DNA of 33,743 nucleotides from contig CACYPS010000035.1 of assembly GCA_902776305.1 (NCBI GenBank), positions 1 through 33,743 on the forward strand, written 5' to 3'. Origin of the DNA: an uncultured Lachnospiraceae bacterium. Lineage in GTDB: Bacteria > Bacillota > Clostridia > Lachnospirales > Lachnospiraceae. A model generated the notes under the pieces. That model was not told where the DNA came from and did no database searches. It saw only the letters and a list, made by a program, of their open reading frames with translations. Below are positions 5,415-33,311 of this stretch, piece by piece. The stretch's first letter is position 1. Each line of letters starts with the position of its first letter. The position numbers and the translations under genes were made by a program.

Positions 5415-5528
5415 AAAAGTGAGATAGGGCGGTCGCATTTAGCGCCCGCCTTAAAAGTGAGATAGAGCGGTCACATTTAGTTGCCGCCTTAAAAGTGAGA
5501 TAGGGCGGTCGCATTTTGCGCCCGCCTT
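5415..5528 (+). repeat. Three tandem 38-bp palindromic repeats (REP-like)
   Basis: Units lie at 5415-5452, 5453-5490 and 5491-5528. Each begins AAAAGTGAGATAG and ends with CCGCCTT. Within each, GGCGG and CCGCC can pair as a hairpin. They sit between two convergent genes and the third unit supplies part of the stop codon of the minus-strand ferredoxin gene (5527-5529). No run of T follows, so a simple rho-independent terminator is unlikely. A related, interrupted sequence (GAGATAGGGC, then GGCGACATTTAG) appears at 13990-14027, suggesting a dispersed element. Confidence 0.85.
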
Positions 5529-6345
5529 ATTTGAGCGCACCCTTGGGACAATTCTTCACGCACTCCATACAAAGGATACATTCCGTTCCATTTTCCCTCT
5601 TTCGAGAATTGTCAGTGACATCCACATCCATGGGACATACCCGCTTGCATTTTCCGCATGAAACGCACTTATCCGTGTCACACCTCACCCTCAGGCGGGC
5701 GTAATAACTCATGGGTTTCAGAAACACTGTGATGGGACAAATGTACTTGCAGAACGCCCGGTTATCCTTAAGCACAAACGCGAGAATGATTCCGACCGCA
5801 TAATACAGAACATTTCCGATGATAAATGCCCGGAACATGATTCCCTCGATATCTGCGACGTGGGCTAAGAACAGGGAGGCAACAAATACCAGCGACAGGG
5901 TGAAGGTGACATACCGGATCCAGCCCCATCTCTTCCGGGGGTGTGTCGGAGCTTTATAAGGAAGAAAATCAAGTATCATCGCCGTCCAGCATGCGTAGCC
6001 GCACCATCCCCGTCCGAAGAGGAGAGGTCCGAATATCTTTGCCACTGCGTAATGAATCGTTGCTGCCTCGAAGACGCCTGAAAAGAGATAATACCAAAAG
6101 CCCTCGATCTGCATATTTTCGCGTGAGATCAGGCCGAGGTAGATCAGCATATAAAGTCCGACAAGCAGCTGAACGATTCGCCGGGCATACTTGTAGTTTT
6201 TTATATACAGAAAGAGTCCCAACGCAATCGAGCATCCGATGTAACTGAAGTTGAGAAGATAGAAAATATTATCTTTCGTCAGCCACAGTATGACGGCTAT
6301 GGCTTCAAAGACTGCCAGCATGACAATAGGGGCGGTATATTTCAT
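5527..6345 (-). CDS. Membrane 4Fe-4S polyferredoxin, NapH/YccM-like
   Basis: A 272-residue protein with about five or six membrane segments in the first 200 residues, including W-C-G-Y-A-C-W in a loop, and a C-terminal cytoplasmic ferredoxin domain. That domain has two cluster motifs, CVSCGKCKRVCP and CILCMECVKNCP, each ready to hold a 4Fe-4S cluster. NapH-type proteins pass electrons from the quinone pool or membrane to soluble reductases. No partner reductase is nearby, so its electron acceptor is unknown. The start is supported by AAGGAG nine bases before the ATG. It converges on the CHASE2-SpoIIE gene across the 38-bp repeats. Confidence 0.85.
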   Translation of the reverse strand: MKYTAPIVMLAVFEAIAVILWLTKDNIFYLLNFSYIGCSIALGLFLYIKNYKYARRIVQLLVGLYMLIYLGLISRENMQIEGFWYYLFSGVFEAATIHYAVAKIFGPLLFGRGWCGYACWTAMILDFLPYKAPTHPRKRWGWIRYVTFTLSLVFVASLFLAHVADIEGIMFRAFIIGNVLYYAVGIILAFVLKDNRAFCKYICPITVFLKPMSYYARLRVRCDTDKCVSCGKCKRVCPMDVDVTDNSRKRENGTECILCMECVKNCPKGALK

Positions 6346-22202: not shown

Positions 22203-22730
22203 ATGATATACGGGAATGTAAACAATGAGTTTTTTGATCAGCAGGCCGCTCTCCTCCCGGCACCCCTTTGCGCCGCCCTTCACTTCTTAAAGGATACAGA
22301 TCTGGCCTCCCATGAACCCGGTAGATTTGACATCGAACTTGATGGCGTACCGATGATTCTGCAGGTACTTGATCTTGAGACATCTCCGAGGGAAGCCTTA
22401 AGACCCGAGATTCACAGAAAATATATTGACGTACAGTTCCTGGCCGCCGGAGGACCGGAGGATGCAGGTTACTACAATGATGACGGCAGCGGGATCGTCG
22501 ATGAAGACCTGCTTGCAACGCAGCGGGACATTCTGTTTTATAAGAACCGTCCGGCGTCCGAGCGTGAAGGCAGGATCGCATTGGAGGTCGGAACGTATGC
22601 GGTTTATCTGCCATGGGATGTGCATATTCCAGCCGTACAGGTAAATGAGACATCCTGTCCGATCAGAAAGATCGTCCTCAAGGTTCCGATGGCTGCATGT
22701 CTTCCGGATGGAATGTGGGAATGGAAATAA
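22203..22730 (+). CDS. YhcH/YjgK/YiaL (EbgC/TabA-like) family protein
   Basis: A 175-residue cupin-like protein, the normal length. It shows E-I-H-R-K-Y-I-D-V-Q-F (the H-x-x-x-x-D metal site), an early G-R-F-D-I-E-L-D segment and W-D-V-H-I-P-A-V-Q near the end. Relatives include EbgC, the small beta-galactosidase subunit, and the biofilm protein TabA. Their shared role appears to be on sugar-acid or anomeric intermediates. AAAGGAG precedes the ATG by seven bases. Its last bases overlap the start of the patatin-GTPase gene, so the two are likely co-transcribed, an odd pairing with no obvious pathway link. Confidence 0.87.
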   Translation: MIYGNVNNEFFDQQAALLPAPLCAALHFLKDTDLASHEPGRFDIELDGVPMILQVLDLETSPREALRPEIHRKYIDVQFLAAGGPEDAGYYNDDGSGIVDEDLLATQRDILFYKNRPASEREGRIALEVGTYAVYLPWDVHIPAVQVNETSCPIRKIVLKVPMAACLPDGMWEWK

Positions 22731-25207
22731 AGAAGCGCGACCTCGCCAATATAGATACCCTCTCCGCAAAAGACCTCGATGAATTCTGCCTGTACTGGAA
22801 CTCCGGTCCGGGACGGGATGTGGAGAAAGACAAGGCCAAAGCCCTTAAACTCGGCAGTGAACCCGATTATCCGAGAGGGCTTTATAAATGCTGCGAGCTT
22901 TCCTGCGGCTGGACCTTCTGTGACCACAGATATGAGAATACCTGCCTTCTGTGCGATGAGGAGGATACTGTCCGGCTGAAGGGAAACTCGATAGAAATCG
23001 TAGGTCTTCTTCTGAATATCGCGATCAGGGAACGGACCCTCGCTCAGATCAGGGAGAGGGAATACGGTCTGGTGCTTTCGGGAGGAGGGGCGAAAGGCGC
23101 ATTTGAAATAGGCGTCTGGAGATGGCTGGAGAGGACAGGTCTTATTCATAAGATAACTGGTATCTCCGGCGCGTCGGTAGGTGCGCTGAACAGCGTTTTG
23201 ATCTCATGTGCCTCGATTGAGGAGGCCGAAGATATATGGCTGTCAATCAGGCAGGATGACCTTACGCCCGTGAATTGGGAGGCGCTGAGAAAAGGTGCGG
23301 AGACGCTTTTGCGCATGGCGGCAGGCACCGCCGCTCTTCCGGTCAATGCAGTGATGATGGCTAAGGAGCTTTCCGCATTAGCGGGAGGATCTGTCTTTAC
23401 GCAGGGGAAGCTCTCTGAGATTGTAAAGCGGGTGCTTGAGCGGAAGATACCGAATCACAGAATTGTATTTTCCTGTCTGGCCCGGCAGAGTCTTCAGAAG
23501 CAGGCGGACCCGCCCACGGAGCTTTTGATAGGGGAGTTTCATAATGCGGATTATTATTGCCTGAATTACAGAAATTCCTGGGATGTTGAGAGAATTGTGA
23601 TGGCTTCGGCGGCGCTGCCGCTGGTGTATGATCCGATTAATATACATCATTTTCTGTACAGGGACGGCGGATGCAGGGACAACACGCCGTATATGCCTCT
23701 GGTGAAGGCCGGGTTCAAAAAGCTGATCGTCGTGCATCTTACGGAACGTACCGTGAATCAGCCGGCAGTTGAGATGGTGGAAAATGCAATCCTGTACCAT
23801 GTATATCCCACGCTGCAGGCAAAGCATGTCATCGATACGCTTCGGATCACGAAGGAGATGACGGAGAATTGGATCAACAACGGTGAGCAGGCTGCAACGG
23901 CGCAGTTGGGTCCGTATCTTAAAAACGGAGAACTCATGATTCCTGAATGCACGCATTATCTTAGTGACAGGGAGACGAATATGGAAAAATTTGATTATGA
24001 AAATTTTGACTTCGACGATGCATTTGAGAAGGTACAGAGCGAGGTGAAAAAGCCGAATATTCTGATATGCGGCGCGACGGGCGTGGGGAAGAGTACGCTG
24101 ATAAGGGACATTTTCCAAATGGGCGATGCGGAAGGTCCTGAGATCGGAAACCAGGGAAGGTCCAAGACCAGCGGTATCCATGCGTACAGCCCTGAAGGAG
24201 CCTTCATCACTCTGTATGACAGCCAGGGTTATAATATCGGAACGGATGAAAATAAGTTCATGAAAGATGTGCTCGGCACCATCGGAAAGAAGGTCAGTGA
24301 CAACCCGGAAGATATGTCCGGCCATATTCATGAGGTGTGGTATTGCGTGGCCGCGGCAAATAACCGGTTCTTCGAAGCCGACGAAAAGATGATCCGGGAG
24401 ATCCGGAAGAAATATGCGATTCCCGTCATGATCATTCTGACGAAGGTGGATTGCGTGGATGAGGAGGCGATCAATCATCTGAAGAGGGCCATATTGGAGA
24501 GAATACCGGATATCTCGATCTTCACTTACGCATGTGACGAGAGGACCGTCGGCTGGGATGAAGAGATAAAAAGAAAGTACGTGCAGAAAGATGAGATAAC
24601 GCAGTGGGCGCTTATGCATCTGGATGAATCCCTGAGGGCGGGATTTATTCCGGCCATAAAGAAGTCTCTGCAAATGAAGCGCAAGTATATCTCAGGGAAG
24701 GTCATACCTAAGTATGCAACCCTTGCGGGAGGTACGGTGGTGGCGACATCTTTCATCAGTGTGCCGTTTACCGATTCGGTTCCGCTTATGGGTCTGCAGC
24801 TGAAGATGTGCTTTGAGATCATTAACGGATACGGCATCCGCACCGAGAAGAAGCAGCTGCTGGCGGATCTTCTCGGGACTTCGGCGGTCTCGGTTCTCGG
24901 GAGAACGCTTGCATCCAGTCTTGTGAAGGTGATTCCGCTGGCTGGGAACGCCATTAATGCGACGGTGAACACGGCGGTTGCGTCCAGTGTGACGGCGGCT
25001 CTGGGATTTGCGATCGCTATTGTGTGCGAGCAGTATCTGGCGGCGTGCGTTGATAATAACGGAGCGCAGAATCTTCCGTTTGCTCAATTCATGAACAGTG
25101 AGAGATTGAAAGAAGCTTTCAAGTATGTGAATGCGCACAAGGATGAATTCAATATCCAGGAGATTACGAACATCGCGGTGAAGAACAGCAAGAAAGTTGA
25201 GGAATGA
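22721..25207 (+). CDS. Patatin-like phospholipase fused to a GTPase with DUF697-like tail
   Basis: I use ATG 22721; ATG 22697 is also in frame and neither has a strong ribosome binding site. From 22721 the protein has 828 residues. Residues 57-78 hold six cysteines (C57, C58, C62, C67, C75, C78), possibly zinc-binding. The patatin domain (about 115-345) has the oxyanion loop GGGAKG (121-126), nucleophile S152 in G-A-S-V-G and the Asp of D-G-G (315-317), so it should be an active lipid hydrolase. From M421 a G domain begins with G1 GATGVGKST (451-459), G3 D500-S-Q-G and G4 T-K-V-D. The C-terminal quarter has Gly/Ala-rich hydrophobic helices like DUF697. M421 has GGGAGA upstream and could be an internal start. 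A second GTPase gene follows. Membrane attack or remodelling, perhaps in defence, is inferred. Confidence 0.85.
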   Translation: MEIKKRDLANIDTLSAKDLDEFCLYWNSGPGRDVEKDKAKALKLGSEPDYPRGLYKCCELSCGWTFCDHRYENTCLLCDEEDTVRLKGNSIEIVGLLLNIAIRERTLAQIREREYGLVLSGGGAKGAFEIGVWRWLERTGLIHKITGISGASVGALNSVLISCASIEEAEDIWLSIRQDDLTPVNWEALRKGAETLLRMAAGTAALPVNAVMMAKELSALAGGSVFTQGKLSEIVKRVLERKIPNHRIVFSCLARQSLQKQADPPTELLIGEFHNADYYCLNYRNSWDVERIVMASAALPLVYDPINIHHFLYRDGGCRDNTPYMPLVKAGFKKLIVVHLTERTVNQPAVEMVENAILYHVYPTLQAKHVIDTLRITKEMTENWINNGEQAATAQLGPYLKNGELMIPECTHYLSDRETNMEKFDYENFDFDDAFEKVQSEVKKPNILICGATGVGKSTLIRDIFQMGDAEGPEIGNQGRSKTSGIHAYSPEGAFITLYDSQGYNIGTDENKFMKDVLGTIGKKVSDNPEDMSGHIHEVWYCVAAANNRFFEADEKMIREIRKKYAIPVMIILTKVDCVDEEAINHLKRAILERIPDISIFTYACDERTVGWDEEIKRKYVQKDEITQWALMHLDESLRAGFIPAIKKSLQMKRKYISGKVIPKYATLAGGTVVATSFISVPFTDSVPLMGLQLKMCFEIINGYGIRTEKKQLLADLLGTSAVSVLGRTLASSLVKVIPLAGNAINATVNTAVASSVTAALGFAIAIVCEQYLAACVDNNGAQNLPFAQFMNSERLKEAFKYVNAHKDEFNIQEITNIAVKNSKKVEE

Positions 25208-25272: not shown

Positions 25273-26490
25273 TTGAGCGAGAGTCTTAATAAAGAGAGTA
25301 CAAATGTATTAATAATCGGAAAGTCCGGCGTCGGAAAAAGCTCCCTTCTGAACTATATGTTCGGGAGGGAGATTCAGCAGGTCGGAGTCGGCGCTCCGGT
25401 CACGAAGATGGAAATCAAAGAGTTCACGTATAAGTACGATGAACATTTTGAGATGCATATTTACGATACCTGGGGACTGGAGCCGAGTGCGCAGAGGGCG
25501 GAGGAGTGGAAGAGCACCATTTTCAAAGAAATCGAGCGTCACGATTCGAAGAAAATCAGCGACTGGTTCAACACGATCATCTTCTGTCTCAATGCGAAGT
25601 CTGCGCGCGTCGAGGATTTCGAGCTTGATATAATGGAGGAGCTGCTGCGTGAGAAGAATCATGTAACCATAGCCCTGACTCACTGCAACTCGAAAAGCGA
25701 CTCTGACGGTATTGTGCTCAGAGATTCCGTGAAAGAGGAACTTGAAAAGCGCGGCATCGATTCGCTTGATGACCGGAATTTTGTGTTCGTGAGTAACGTC
25801 AGGAAAGTGCTGTTGGGCGGGACGGTCGAGCAGTTCGGGAAGGAAGAGATCTTCATTTCCATTATCAGAAATGTATGGGCTTCCTTAAAGAGCAAGGTGC
25901 CGTATCAGGCCAGGAAGCATTTTGAGAGCCTCTTTGCTTTGAAGAAGGAGGAGCTCCTGAAAAAGCCCGACAGATTAAGATGGATGGCTCCGCTTATGCG
26001 AAAGAATCAGATAAAGGCGTTGGAACTGGAGATAAACAGAAATTGCAGTTCCTTCGTCAATGAGCTGGTTGCGGAAATCAATGCGATGTACAACGATGCT
26101 GTCGTGTATTATACGGAGCTCTCCAAGAAGTACGCCATGATCGGATTTCAGATGGATTCGGACGATTACGTGACGTCGGCGGAGATACATTTTGACGCGA
26201 CGCAGACGATCAGGGAGCAGGTCACTGCCGATCTGGAGCTGCTGAAGGAGAGAATGCAGTTTCTGGATGATATTTTGAAAGATAACAGGGTGGAATCCAG
26301 AATTCGGGACACGATAGTGAATATCAGGATTTTTATGAAAGACAGCAAGAAGGTACGGCAGGACCTGAAAAGTGAGCTTGAGAGGTACATGGATGAGGTG
26401 TATCGGTATCTTGATGCTCATCTGAAGAAGATTGAGGAAAATCTGGATTTGCTGGAAATAGATGATTTGTATGTGTTCCAGACGAACTGA
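25273..26490 (+). CDS. Stand-alone GTPase (TRAFAC type) with C-terminal coiled coils
   Basis: A 405-residue protein starting at TTG 25273, with GAGGAA from the duplicated upstream sequence as ribosome binding site. G1 is GKSGVGKS (16-23), G3 is D65-T-W-G, and T-H-C-N-S-K-S-D (136-143) replaces a canonical N-K-x-D G4. Residues about 215-400 are charged and helical, with long heptad-like stretches (for example E-E-N-L-D-L-L-E), as in dynamin-like or GIMAP/septin-like GTPases. It has no membrane segment. It lies 65 bp after the patatin-GTPase gene and is surely its operon partner. The two G domains may pair with each other (inference). Confidence 0.8.
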   Translation: MSESLNKESTNVLIIGKSGVGKSSLLNYMFGREIQQVGVGAPVTKMEIKEFTYKYDEHFEMHIYDTWGLEPSAQRAEEWKSTIFKEIERHDSKKISDWFNTIIFCLNAKSARVEDFELDIMEELLREKNHVTIALTHCNSKSDSDGIVLRDSVKEELEKRGIDSLDDRNFVFVSNVRKVLLGGTVEQFGKEEIFISIIRNVWASLKSKVPYQARKHFESLFALKKEELLKKPDRLRWMAPLMRKNQIKALELEINRNCSSFVNELVAEINAMYNDAVVYYTELSKKYAMIGFQMDSDDYVTSAEIHFDATQTIREQVTADLELLKERMQFLDDILKDNRVESRIRDTIVNIRIFMKDSKKVRQDLKSELERYMDEVYRYLDAHLKKIEENLDLLEIDDLYVFQTN

Positions 26491-30528: not shown

Positions 30529-30867
30529 AAATTACGGAGTAGGAAGAAAATCTCGATTATTTCCGTAAATTGGTTCAGCCGGCATTCAAGTAAGGACAGA
30601 AATTACCGAAGTAAAAGCAAGAATGCCGATTACTTCGGTAAATTGGCTCGGCCGGCATTCAAGTAAGGACAGAAATTACCGAAGTAAAAGCAAGAATGCC
30701 GATTACTTCGGTAAATTGGCTCAGCCGGCATTCAAGTAAGGACAGAAATTACCGAAGTAAAAGCAAGAATGCCGATTACTTCGGTAAATTGGCTCAGCCG
30801 GCATTCAAGCAAGGACAGAAATTACCGAAGTAAAAGCAAAAATGCCGATTACTTCGGTAAATTGGAC
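30529..30867 (+). repeat. 73-bp tandem array with interleaved inverted repeats
   Basis: Units start at 30600, 30673, 30746 and 30819 (period exactly 73), preceded by a diverged 71-bp unit at 30529. The last unit is cut after about 49 bp. In the first full unit, arm A1 TTACCGAAGTA (30603-30613) pairs with A2 TACTTCGGTAA (30631-30641), and B1 GAATGCCG (30621-30628) pairs with B2 CGGCATTC (30653-30660). The order A1-B1-A2-B2 is that of an H-type pseudoknot. In the diverged unit, TTACGGA and TCCGTAA keep stem A by a paired change. The period is not a multiple of three, so the array is not coding. It differs from CRISPR because no variable spacers are present. Confidence 0.9.
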
Positions 30868-30929: not shown

Positions 30930-31271
30930 ATGAATATACAGATATTTGGCACGAAAAAATCCAAAGACTCGCAGAAAGCTGAGCGCTTTTTCAAGGAGCG
31001 GGGCATCAAGTTCCAGTATGTGGACATGAAGATGAAGGGACTTTCAAAAGGCGAGTTCGAGAGTGTCCTCAAGGCCGTCGGAGGTCTTGAGGCTATGATC
31101 GACCGGAATTGTAAGGACAAGGATCTGCTGGCGCTGGTTACCTACATAGCTGAGGAAGACCGGGCGGAGAAGGTGTTGGAAAATCAGTCGGTCCTGCTGC
31201 TCCCGATTGTTAGGAACGGGAAGCAGGCGACGGTGGGTTATCAGCCGGAGGTGTGGAAGAAGTGGGAATGA
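30930..31271 (+). CDS. ArsC/Spx-family thioredoxin-fold protein lacking the catalytic cysteine
   Basis: A 113-residue protein of normal family length, with TTGGAG before the ATG. It reads M-N-I-Q-I-F-G-T-K-K-S-K-D-S-Q-K-A-E-R-F-F-K-E-R-G, the ArsC/Spx/YffB fold. In relatives the residue after G-T-K-K is the active cysteine; here it is serine (S11). The only cysteine is in R-N-C-K-D, far from the active loop. L-L-L-P-I-V-R-N-G-K near the end is the cis-proline region. It is therefore unlikely to be an arsenate reductase. A regulatory, Spx-like or degenerate role is possible. The 3' end is duplicated just downstream. Confidence 0.8.
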   Translation: MNIQIFGTKKSKDSQKAERFFKERGIKFQYVDMKMKGLSKGEFESVLKAVGGLEAMIDRNCKDKDLLALVTYIAEEDRAEKVLENQSVLLLPIVRNGKQATVGYQPEVWKKWE

Positions 31272-31331
31272 GGAAGTGAAACGGTGGGTTATCAGCCGGA
31301 GATGTGGAAGAAGTGGGAATGAGGAAATGAA
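31230..31331 (+). repeat. Tandem duplication of the ArsC-like gene's 3' end
   Basis: The 51 bp at 31230-31280, covering the last 14 codons and the stop, are repeated at 31281-31331 with only two differences. The copy is in a non-coding position. This is the second case in the window of a gene's end, including its stop codon, being copied in tandem. Confidence 0.92.
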
Positions 31332-31363
31332 GCGGTTGCTCTGTAAAAAAAATACGGGGCAAC

Positions 31364-31420: not shown

Positions 31421-32527
31421 ATGCTAAAGCGGTTCAGTGTAGAAAACTTCAAAGGTTTTAAGGACAAGATCACTTTTGATATTGGATCACCCAGCAATTA
31501 TGGATTCCATTCGGAGATTATCGAAGGAGGTTGTATAACCAAGGGTATAATTTATGGCATCAACGGAAGTGGGAAGTCAAACCTGGGTCTTGCAATCTTT
31601 GATGTTATTTTACATTTGACAGAAAAACAGAAACTTCTTCAGAGCTATGATTTTTATCTTAACATGAGTGGCCGAAAGTCATTTGCGGAATTTGAGTATA
31701 CCTTTATTTTTGACGGTCATGAGTTGGTTTACAGATATTCTAAGACCAATGTTGATGCTTTCAGGGAAGAAAGTCTTTCTATTGATGGTGAAGAGGTCAT
31801 ATATTACGATTTCCAGGCTAAAGACGGGTTTACTTCGCTGGAAGGTTCTGACACCCTAAATGTATCAATTAAGAACGAAAGCCCAATATCACGCGTAAAA
31901 TATGTGAATAGCAACTCAATTCTTGTAGATAATGTACAGAATCAAGTATTCAAAAAGTTCATTGATTTTGTAGACCGAATGCTTTTGTTCTATTCCCTGG
32001 ACAGCAGGGGCTATGAGGGTTTCATGAATGGGAGCGAAGGTATTGCCGAAGGAATTGTCAATGCCGGTAAGGTGCAGGATTTCCAGGAGTTCCTGAAGGA
32101 AAATGATATAGATTATAGCCTGTACGAATGTGAAGTGGATGGACGCAAGGCAATCTATTGTCACTTTGATAATAAGGATGCTGACTTCTTTAAGATTGCA
32201 TCTACGGGAACGAGATCACTGGCGCTATTTTACTATTGGTATATTCGGATGAAGAAGGCGTCATTCGTCTTCATAGATGAATTTGACGCTTTTTATCATT
32301 TTGAATTGTCTGAGGCAGTTCAGAAAAGAGTGAATGAAATATCTGGTGTGCAGGTATTTACAACAACGCATAATACAGATCTTATGAATAATGACCTTCT
32401 TAGACCGGATTGCTATTTTCTATTGAAGGGTAACAAGATCAAAGCGCTTTCTGAGCGGACAGCGAAGGAATTGCGTCAGGCACATAATCTTCAAAAAATG
32501 TATAAGGCAGGTGCATTTAATGGCTGA
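31421..32527 (+). CDS. ABC/OLD-type AAA ATPase of a TOPRIM-linked pair
   Basis: I chose ATG 31421 (M-L-K-R-F-S-V-E-N-F-K-G-F-K-D), the usual beginning of the AAA_15/AAA_21 family; the frame opens earlier at TTG 31364, which is inside the promoter. The 368-residue protein has Walker A GINGSGKS (46-53), a signature-like S-T-G-T-R-S-L, Walker B F-V-F-I-D-E-F-D and the H-loop region T-T-H-N-T-D-L. Such SMC-like ATPases dimerise in the cytoplasm. It overlaps by 8 nt a gene for a TOPRIM-like protein. Known ATPase/TOPRIM pairs such as PARIS, AbiL and RloAB act against phage, so a defence role is likely, but I cannot say which type this is. Confidence 0.85.
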   Translation: MLKRFSVENFKGFKDKITFDIGSPSNYGFHSEIIEGGCITKGIIYGINGSGKSNLGLAIFDVILHLTEKQKLLQSYDFYLNMSGRKSFAEFEYTFIFDGHELVYRYSKTNVDAFREESLSIDGEEVIYYDFQAKDGFTSLEGSDTLNVSIKNESPISRVKYVNSNSILVDNVQNQVFKKFIDFVDRMLLFYSLDSRGYEGFMNGSEGIAEGIVNAGKVQDFQEFLKENDIDYSLYECEVDGRKAIYCHFDNKDADFFKIASTGTRSLALFYYWYIRMKKASFVFIDEFDAFYHFELSEAVQKRVNEISGVQVFTTTHNTDLMNNDLLRPDCYFLLKGNKIKALSERTAKELRQAHNLQKMYKAGAFNG

Positions 32528-33311
32528 TAAAGACTATAAGGCGTTTATAGTCGAGGGAGAGGCCAGAGAACCGCAGATTATTGATAATATCTCGAAGGTA
32601 TTCTTTGCTCATAATAATTTTAAGATTATAACTCTTCCGGCTGGTGAGAATATCTATATGCTCTGGAAAAAACTGAAAGAGGATGACTTCGAGACTGATA
32701 TCATAGAAGTTCTTAGAGAGAGTCATGATTATATCGCGGAACAGCTGACCGGTCTGTCAAGAGATGATTTCTCGGAAATATATCTTTTCTTTGACTATGA
32801 CACGCATCAGACTAATATGGGCAAAGAGGATGATGAAGATGCTGTTGCTAAGATGCTGAAAAGTTTTGATAACGAGACTGAAAGCGGCAAGTTATATATC
32901 AGTTATCCTATGGTGGAAGCTCTAAGAGATTATAAACCCGGGATATGTGGAGAAAAGGAAGAATGCTATGTTGCAGTTGGGGATATGATTCATTATAAGA
33001 ATATGTCCTCGGACCGATCGGCTAATCCTCAATTCAAGAGTTATCACTATGAGATTTGGAAAGATATCATAAATGTTTTTGCGATGAAAGTATCATGTCT
33101 TTTTGGCATGGTTGATACGATGGAATATGGAAAATACTCTGAAATTGTAAATCCATACGAGATTTATGTGTTAGAAGAAATGGAATCAGAAAAAGACCGG
33201 GTTTTTGTGCTGAGTGCATTTCCAGAGTTCCTTGTAGACTATTATGGTGTGAAGCTGTGGAAAACATGTGCGAAGCAAAAAAGGAATCTACGGGAAATCC
33301 AAGGCTGTTAA
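32520..33311 (+). CDS. TOPRIM-like (RloB/AbiLii/DUF4435-like) effector
   Basis: Start chosen at ATG 32520 with GGCAGG eight bases upstream; a GTG at 32511 is also in frame. The 263-residue product begins with F-I-V-E-G-E-A-R-E-P-Q-I-I, matching the TOPRIM acidic strand (E12, E14), followed by Y-L-F-F-D-Y-D-T-H (D92, D94) and S-Y-P-M-V-E-A-L. This arrangement fits TOPRIM nuclease-like proteins encoded beside OLD/AAA ATPases. The gene overlaps its ATPase partner, pointing to tight stoichiometry. In known systems the ATPase senses phage and the TOPRIM protein cuts RNA, tRNA or DNA; here that is inference. Confidence 0.75.
   Translation: MADKDYKAFIVEGEAREPQIIDNISKVFFAHNNFKIITLPAGENIYMLWKKLKEDDFETDIIEVLRESHDYIAEQLTGLSRDDFSEIYLFFDYDTHQTNMGKEDDEDAVAKMLKSFDNETESGKLYISYPMVEALRDYKPGICGEKEECYVAVGDMIHYKNMSSDRSANPQFKSYHYEIWKDIINVFAMKVSCLFGMVDTMEYGKYSEIVNPYEIYVLEEMESEKDRVFVLSAFPEFLVDYYGVKLWKTCAKQKRNLREIQGC

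Follow-up and report, generated by a model that had tools for sequence, protein, structure and literature searches.

Tandem repeats with proposed pseudoknots are found in type III toxin-antitoxin RNAs, in which the unit length is about 35 to 45. REPINs and REP/BIME elements are extragenic, occur in high copy and consist of short inverted doublets that form a hairpin unit, sometimes in tandem with their flanks (Bertels and Rainey 2011, PMC3116915; Nunvar et al. 2010, PMC2817692). The GTAG and CGTC REP superfamilies are small palindromic repeats in high copy as well (PMC3733652), and the main text of that study contains no word beginning with Clostridi, Firmicutes or Lachno. Among titles and the openings of abstracts, we found no work describing arrays of the kind analyzed here. 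These arrays occur in the 4.07-Mb genome of an uncultured Lachnospiraceae bacterium (G000) and in a close species of the same genus (G022), and one of them lies in the window, by which we mean the whole stretch of 33,743 nucleotides of G000 that was analyzed.

The dyad family resembles REPINs and REP elements in being high copy (267 exact and 293 relaxed units), extragenic and built on an inverted doublet. It differs in that its units do not lie beside a Y1 transposase gene and three carrier genomes have no Y1 match, in that its arrays keep a regular 73/74-bp period with gaps that are near random between arrays, and in that most units, all from Lachnospiraceae, carry no GTAG tag. The small palindromic repeat and the high copy number are likewise shared with the GTAG and CGTC superfamilies (PMC3733652), whereas the dyad half-sites mostly end TTAC/GTAA and the dyad arrays are regular. 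A search for the Y1 family in nine genomes gave five matches in G000, three in G022 and none in the more distant carriers G066 to G068. No unit was found at any of these eight loci in G000 and G022, and L221 alone among them has half-sites, two in number and each without a partner. A Y1 gene may have been missed in G022, which is 76% complete. Mobility by a RAYT/REPIN mechanism was rejected on this count. Most half-sites begin TTAC rather than with a GTAG or CGTC tag; in G066 to G068, 20 of 86 half-sites begin CTAC, i.e., end GTAG. The unit is a REPIN-like variant of extragenic palindrome and is not called a REPIN, because it lacks both the transposase association and the tag.

CRISPR arrays are similar to the dyad arrays in period and in the size of the palindromic part (39 plus 34/35 bp), but the would-be spacers of one array in G000 and G022 are alike (mean identity, 0.74 over 47 arrays), and the would-be repeat has a variable core, with loops that vary between arrays, and occurs at dozens of unrelated loci; identical repeats combined with unique spacers were not seen in the dyad arrays. 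Type III toxin-antitoxin repeats share with the window array the tandem arrangement and a proposed pseudoknot, but the dyad unit measures 73 bp, its stem B is unsupported, and neither a ToxN-like toxin nor any other toxin-family match adjoins the window array. The neighbors are a SpoIIE-domain protein upstream and, downstream, an ArsC-like protein and a PDC-M12 candidate defense pair.

The features of the window array, and of three arrays of G025 discussed below, are given in the table.

Table. Coordinates of the window array, its parts and the arrays of G025 (locus handles precede the positions for G025)
Feature	Position	Strand	Basis
Whole array: diverged unit 1 followed by four nearly identical 73-bp units	30532..30860	+	strand named from loop motif GCAAGAAT
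Diverged unit 1, TTACGGAGTA ... TATTTCCGTAA; compensated stem A change, B1 absent	30532..30568	+	by eye
34-bp gap after unit 1, containing B2 CGGCATTC at 30580-30587	30569..30602	.	read from sequence
Dyad unit 2, TTACCGAAGTA - 17 bp - TACTTCGGTAA	30603..30641	+	half-site distances
B1 GAATGCCG inside the loop of unit 2; pairing with B2 unsupported across the family	30621..30628	.	
Dyad unit 3	30676..30714	+	half-site distances
Dyad unit 4	30749..30787	+	half-site distances
Dyad unit 5, last dyad	30822..30860	+	half-site distances
Further 34-bp gaps	30642-30675, 30715-30748, 30788-30821	.	read from sequence
AGGCARC-arm arrays of G025	L288:503-1104, L288:14373-15212, L294:845-1273		

The 73-bp tandem array reported in the initial annotation was confirmed both by half-site spacing and by TRF, which returned a 73-bp repeat of 4.3 copies with 97% matches (30554-30865). 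In each unit, two 11-bp arms in inverted orientation enclose a 17-bp loop, and a gap of 34 bp follows. The order A1-B1-A2-B2, the connectors of 7, 2 and 11 nt, the 8-nt B1 and B2 segments and the 11-bp stem A had all been read correctly; stem A is 11 bp in the units as defined here, and an alternative detection gives 15 nt at 93%. Unit 1 was also as claimed: B1 is lost, and both sides of stem A are altered with pairing kept. Here ACCGA/TCGGT has been replaced by ACGGA/TCCGT, so that a C-G pair becomes G-C, a compensated change; A1 of this unit is shorter by one base. The location is intergenic, as proposed, in that the array overlaps no open reading frame (ORF) of at least 100 amino acids by more than 60 bp. 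Folded as RNA, the 371-nt region reached -115.2 kcal/mol (z = -7.58 against 100 shuffles), and a single unit folded as hairpin A without B (z = -2.97) in a program that draws no pseudoknots. No terminator-like site was found at the window array. Nothing in the window matched Rfam at gathering score. The initial annotation was made without the rest of the genome, where the REPIN-like character of the unit and its hundreds of copies come to light.

With the 372-bp region as query, 52 matches were obtained in its own genome. The family unit is a 39-bp dyad, TTACSGAAGTA-N17-TACTTCSGTAA, with the half-site also written TTACSGAAGYR. The exact pattern TACSGAAGYR-N17-YRCTTCSGTA was found 267 times in G000 and 112 times in G022 (backward-pattern control, 0) and not once in the other 40 genomes of the genus, and with up to 2 mismatches there were about 293 units in G000 and 126 in G022 (backward-pattern controls, 4 and 3). 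Related copies, whose absence elsewhere the initial annotation would have held against its reading, thus exist in both genomes. An exact 37-base pattern had no match in genome contigs, and a looser tandem pattern matched three of 392 genomes of the order, a draw that did not include G022 or G066 to G068: G000, with 209 forward matches, and two others with one or two dissimilar places each. From sampled stretches, rather than all of either genome, we collected 65 arrays of 2 to 12 units, 44 in G000 (222 units) and 21 in G022 (87 units). They are scattered over dozens of unrelated loci, chiefly in intergenic spacers whose flanking genes are unrelated; 53 of the 65 have no overlap of more than 60 bp with any ORF of at least 100 amino acids, and 12 overlap some such ORF. 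Over eight array loci searched against Rfam at E values up to 1, nothing reached gathering score over an array, and the matches obtained were a tRNA (L187:686-765) and two subthreshold microRNA matches in L021, one of which (5615-5691) adjoins the array.

Spacing within the arrays was far more constant than the sequence between the dyads. Measured on half-sites with up to 2 mismatches and without assuming a loop length, the distance from the start of A1 to that of A2 was 28 bp in 241 of 245 cases and that from A2 to the next A1 was 45 or 46 bp in 192 of 215. Over the whole of G000, 190 forward matches were followed by another half-site at this fixed spacing, compared with none for the backward control. 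A length of 34 or 35 bp was shared by 221 of 244 gaps, and 24 of the 65 arrays contained both lengths; the mean period is about 73.5 bp, or seven turns at 10.5 bp per turn. Mean identity between arrays was 0.88 for arms (a value that, like the 17-bp loop, is partly set by the way units were collected), 0.42 for loops, 0.35 for 34-bp gaps and 0.31 for 35-bp gaps. A preference for 73 or 74 bp was not seen among tandem repeats without TACSGAAGYR arms at the sampled G000 loci (2 of 31). Of 20 rarer intervals, G066 to G068 included, 14 were whole turns and 6 were not. The 12 gaps outside 32 to 36 bp in G000 and G022 comprised six of 45 bp (period, 84 bp or 8.0 turns) in two arrays, five in L030 and one in L034, and six that were off phase and count against phasing (19, 29 twice, 50, 53 and 62 bp, for periods of 58, 68 twice, 89, 92 and 101 bp), at least two of the latter in arrays with stray half-sites.

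We favor, with a probability that we put at a little under one half, the reading that the arrays are REP/REPIN-like extragenic palindromes that have been amplified locally and are held in register for the cooperative binding of a putative protein to phased double-stranded DNA sites. The window array is one member of a genome-wide repetitive extragenic palindrome family in which each unit presents two inverted TTACSGAAGYR half-sites with 17 bp of loosely constrained sequence between them. Selection would maintain half-sites and spacing alike and thereby keep neighboring dyads, about 73.5 bp or seven helical turns apart, on the same side of the DNA, and a putative sequence-specific protein would most likely bind these sites cooperatively, as a chromosome-organizing or local regulatory platform. 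Support for phased sites comes from gaps that are 31 to 35% identical between arrays yet near constant in length. Counting against a protein-site reading, no Pfam family was found in two members of any of three groups of neighbors (71 proteins beside G000 arrays, among the 25 families listed per group); Aminotran_1_2 and Alpha-amylase each occurred once in each of two neighbor groups. If the phasing is true, these bacteria would mark dozens of intergenic sites with a fixed-pitch protein-binding lattice; the conserved half-site would be a direct bait for the putative protein, and the presence or absence of a given array among close species would supply natural controls.

The half-site core and its spacing recurred in three further Lachnospiraceae metagenome-assembled genomes, RUG12349 (G066), SRR873597_bin.113 (G067) and RGIG6931 (G068), with 16, 17 and 8 matches, respectively, at up to 2 mismatches. 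Their core, TACGGAA-N23-TTCCGTA, had a period of 73 to 75 bp in 19 of 27 intervals, and the other 8 measured 64, 83, 84, 85 or 137 bp and were counted as whole-turn alternatives. Gap identity was 0.44 inside arrays (16 pairs, one of 0.97 in L190) versus 0.35 between arrays. Upstream of a GyrB-like gene, named from its translation, there was one unit in G066 and a four-unit array in each of G067 and G068, and T-runs of terminator-like appearance followed several of the units in the three genomes. By eye, dyad pairs 137 bp (13 turns) apart at L187, L188 and L191 of G066 flank a -35-like sequence, TTGACATAAC, with an overlap between the second dyad and the expected start region, as in a looped operator pair.

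In a sister species, G025, three arrays of 73/74-bp period were built on different arms, AGGCARC/GYTGCCT. Their dyads measure 39 or 40 bp and their gaps 34 bp, and they were the only ones with this period among 17 arrays over 675 kb. One spacer of G011 holds CACTGTATC-N18-GATACAGTG with a period of 74 bp, which is a weak case of a dialect because GATACAGTG arms occur at a single site in 42 genomes at up to 1 mismatch. No 73/74-bp array occurred in 200-kb samples of both G026 and G027 or in a 61-kb sample of G035, and the G026 sample contained one 75-bp array without clear arms. These data suggest that the arms may vary between species while the geometry is constant. A bolder proposition, that hundreds of dyads in dozens of arrays form a platform of an undescribed kind, with a pitch of seven turns held by selection, a putative protein and arms that differ between sister species, seems to us rather unlikely at present. 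Separately, L282:797-965 of G025 carries a repeat with a 68-bp period and a CRISPR-like look, which we take to resemble a type I-C CRISPR repeat.

Pairing in stem A was assessed in 309 units, in which positions 2 to 4 and 6 to 9 were Watson-Crick in at least 298 units each; since units were collected by their arms (up to 5 mismatches in 22), this conservation is partly built in. Position 1 was non-Watson-Crick in 116 of the 309, and position 5 was C-G in 166, G-C in 99, G-G in 31 and C-C in 9. Among the consensuses of the 65 arrays, position 5 was C-G in 30 and G-C in 26, so that 56 were Watson-Crick, compared with about 32 expected if the arms were independent, and mismatches stood at position 1 in 18 and at position 5 in 9. 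A covariation sample was formed from 38 of 44 units whose gap is 34 bp long (excluded were L046_2078, L050_2951, L117_3334, L152_3099, L154_867 and L154_6760). Here, position 5 was G-C in 17 and C-G in 15, stem A was 94.5% paired (91.1% in shuffles), and its covariation of 0.118 (0.075 in shuffles) was matched by 0 of 500 shuffles. The paired change noticed in the initial annotation is therefore real and recurrent.

This covariation also fits an RNA or single-stranded hairpin, and the arrays might be transcribed as stem-loops without a pseudoknot in untranslated or intercistronic mRNA, with a role in stability, in attenuation or as a sponge. Between same-strand genes, 25 of 34 arrays point the same way as the genes (one-sided binomial P = 0.0045, with orthologous pairs not independent), which hints at transcription, the orientation being taken from the loop motif, a weak guide for some arrays. 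One array lies within the carA-carB spacer, and the T-runs in G066 to G068 would suit such RNAs as well. The fixed 34/35-bp gap of near-random sequence, however, is unnecessary for RNA hairpins, mid-stem mismatches predominate in 9 of 65 arrays, 8 of 65 arrays lie between divergent genes, and the window array has no terminator-like site. The excess of G-U over A-C that RNA pairing would leave is weak: wobble changes in the 34 arrays between same-strand genes were 65 G-U versus 46 A-C. With arrays oriented by the loop motif instead, there were 92 G-U versus 57 A-C at positions 10 and 11 of the arms; counted by array in this orientation, G-U exceeded A-C in 28 and the reverse was seen in 17. Among 43 distinct units of G066 to G068, arm position 9 paired in 31 (21.7 expected) and inner positions hardly or not at all, the largest value being 19 versus 15.8 at position 15. 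We hold the DNA reading to be about twice as likely as the RNA reading and regard transcribed hairpins as an unlikely account of the family. The initial annotation had named a protein-binding array as its alternative, and this fits better because gap length is conserved without gap sequence and the wobble strand bias is weak.

Unit number differs between the two species, as would be expected of a selfish or neutral repeat, a REPIN- or MITE-like mobile palindrome that spreads between spacers and expands by slippage without host function. At four arrays whose flanking proteins both match between G000 and G022 (76.6 to 99.3% identical), the units numbered 12 and 2, 8 and 2, 6 and 2, and 5 and 2, and at one array with a single matching flank they numbered 9 and 5. 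The carA-carB spacer holds two units in 171 nt in G000 and none in 49 nt in G022, despite 99% identity over the first 300 amino acids of carB, which would reflect either gain in G000 or loss in G022. In 23 genomes of the genus with a readable spacer, its length ranges from -29 to 190 nt; most members have fewer than 60 nt, and long spacers were noted in L233 (G004; 190 nt) and L236 (G025; 106 nt). The patchy distribution of the dyads, the other minisatellites of the G000 genome and the off-phase half of the unusual gaps also speak for a neutral repeat. On the other hand, drift alone would not hold gaps at 34/35 bp with a gap identity of about 33%, the half-site core and spacing are common to other Lachnospiraceae, and Y1 matches are without an adjacent unit in G000 and G022 and absent from G066 to G068. 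This account is in our view also improbable, and we rank it after the transcribed hairpins.

The H-type pseudoknot RNA put forward in the initial annotation is very improbable, and we rejected it because stem B was neither array specific over 64 arrays nor covarying over 38 units. Arms and connectors are sterically suitable in the window and B complementarity is good in some other arrays, but complementarity to the own partner averaged 13.61, as did that to other arrays (permutation P = 0.49; 64 of the 65 arrays, the gaps of the remaining one being of unsuitable length), and four foreign gaps outscored that of the window array with its own loop. In the 38 units, stem B was 47.7% paired compared with 45.4% in shuffles (75 of 500 as high), with a covariation of 0.176 versus 0.177 (260 of 500 as high). 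Taken together, the two helices did exceed the shuffles, of which 1 of 500 was as high in paired cells and 16 of 500 were as high in covariation, a signal that comes from stem A and not from B. The 47.7% does exceed slid versions (21 to 39%) of a structure taken from the window's own units, which means that the semiconserved loop (GCAAGAATGCCG) and gap (GCCGGCATT) look complementary on average. The B complementarity is without array specificity and is a by-product of the semiconserved loop and gap; a second stem is not supported. Complementary segments in one tandem array are thus weak evidence of RNA structure until the family is compared, and the interpretation given in the initial annotation is, overall, partly supported.

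Candidate relatives on phages and plasmids were rejected. Fourteen stretches of viral contigs and several matches in genomes of Lachnospiraceae and other Clostridia share TTACGGAAGTA-N17-TACTTCCGTAA, but what they contain is a site of another type, namely 18-bp palindromes similar to TATACTTACGGAAGTATA within promoter-like sequence. Such 18-bp palindromes are repeated in phage- or plasmid-like elements and in genome contigs (L093 to L106, L055, L059, L070 and L090), several of them near ParA/ParB-like genes named by eye. Singletons in Chitinophagaceae, Oceanospirillaceae and Deltaproteobacteria, which are unrelated phyla, were taken as chance.

The ArsC-like gene beside the window array has matches in 11 of 42 genomes of the genus, its own included, and not in G022, and at 12 further loci, some of them cut by contig ends, TRF found no 73/74-bp array. 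A 51-bp tandem duplication covers the 3' end and the stop codon of the window's ArsC-like gene (31230-31336). The defense-like pair placed near the array in the initial annotation corresponds to a two-gene PADLOC candidate system (31421-33311) in which an AAA ATPase and its partner match PDC-M12A (9e-146) and PDC-M12B (8.7e-73). Elsewhere in the window, another array (38 bp, 3.0 copies) lies at 5415-5529 beside a gene whose product has a C terminus that, by eye, resembles the SpoIIE-domain protein. An 836-amino-acid protein encoded at 22697-25207 joins a patatin-like phospholipase domain to a GTPase-like region and is followed by a second GTPase-like gene at 25273-26490.
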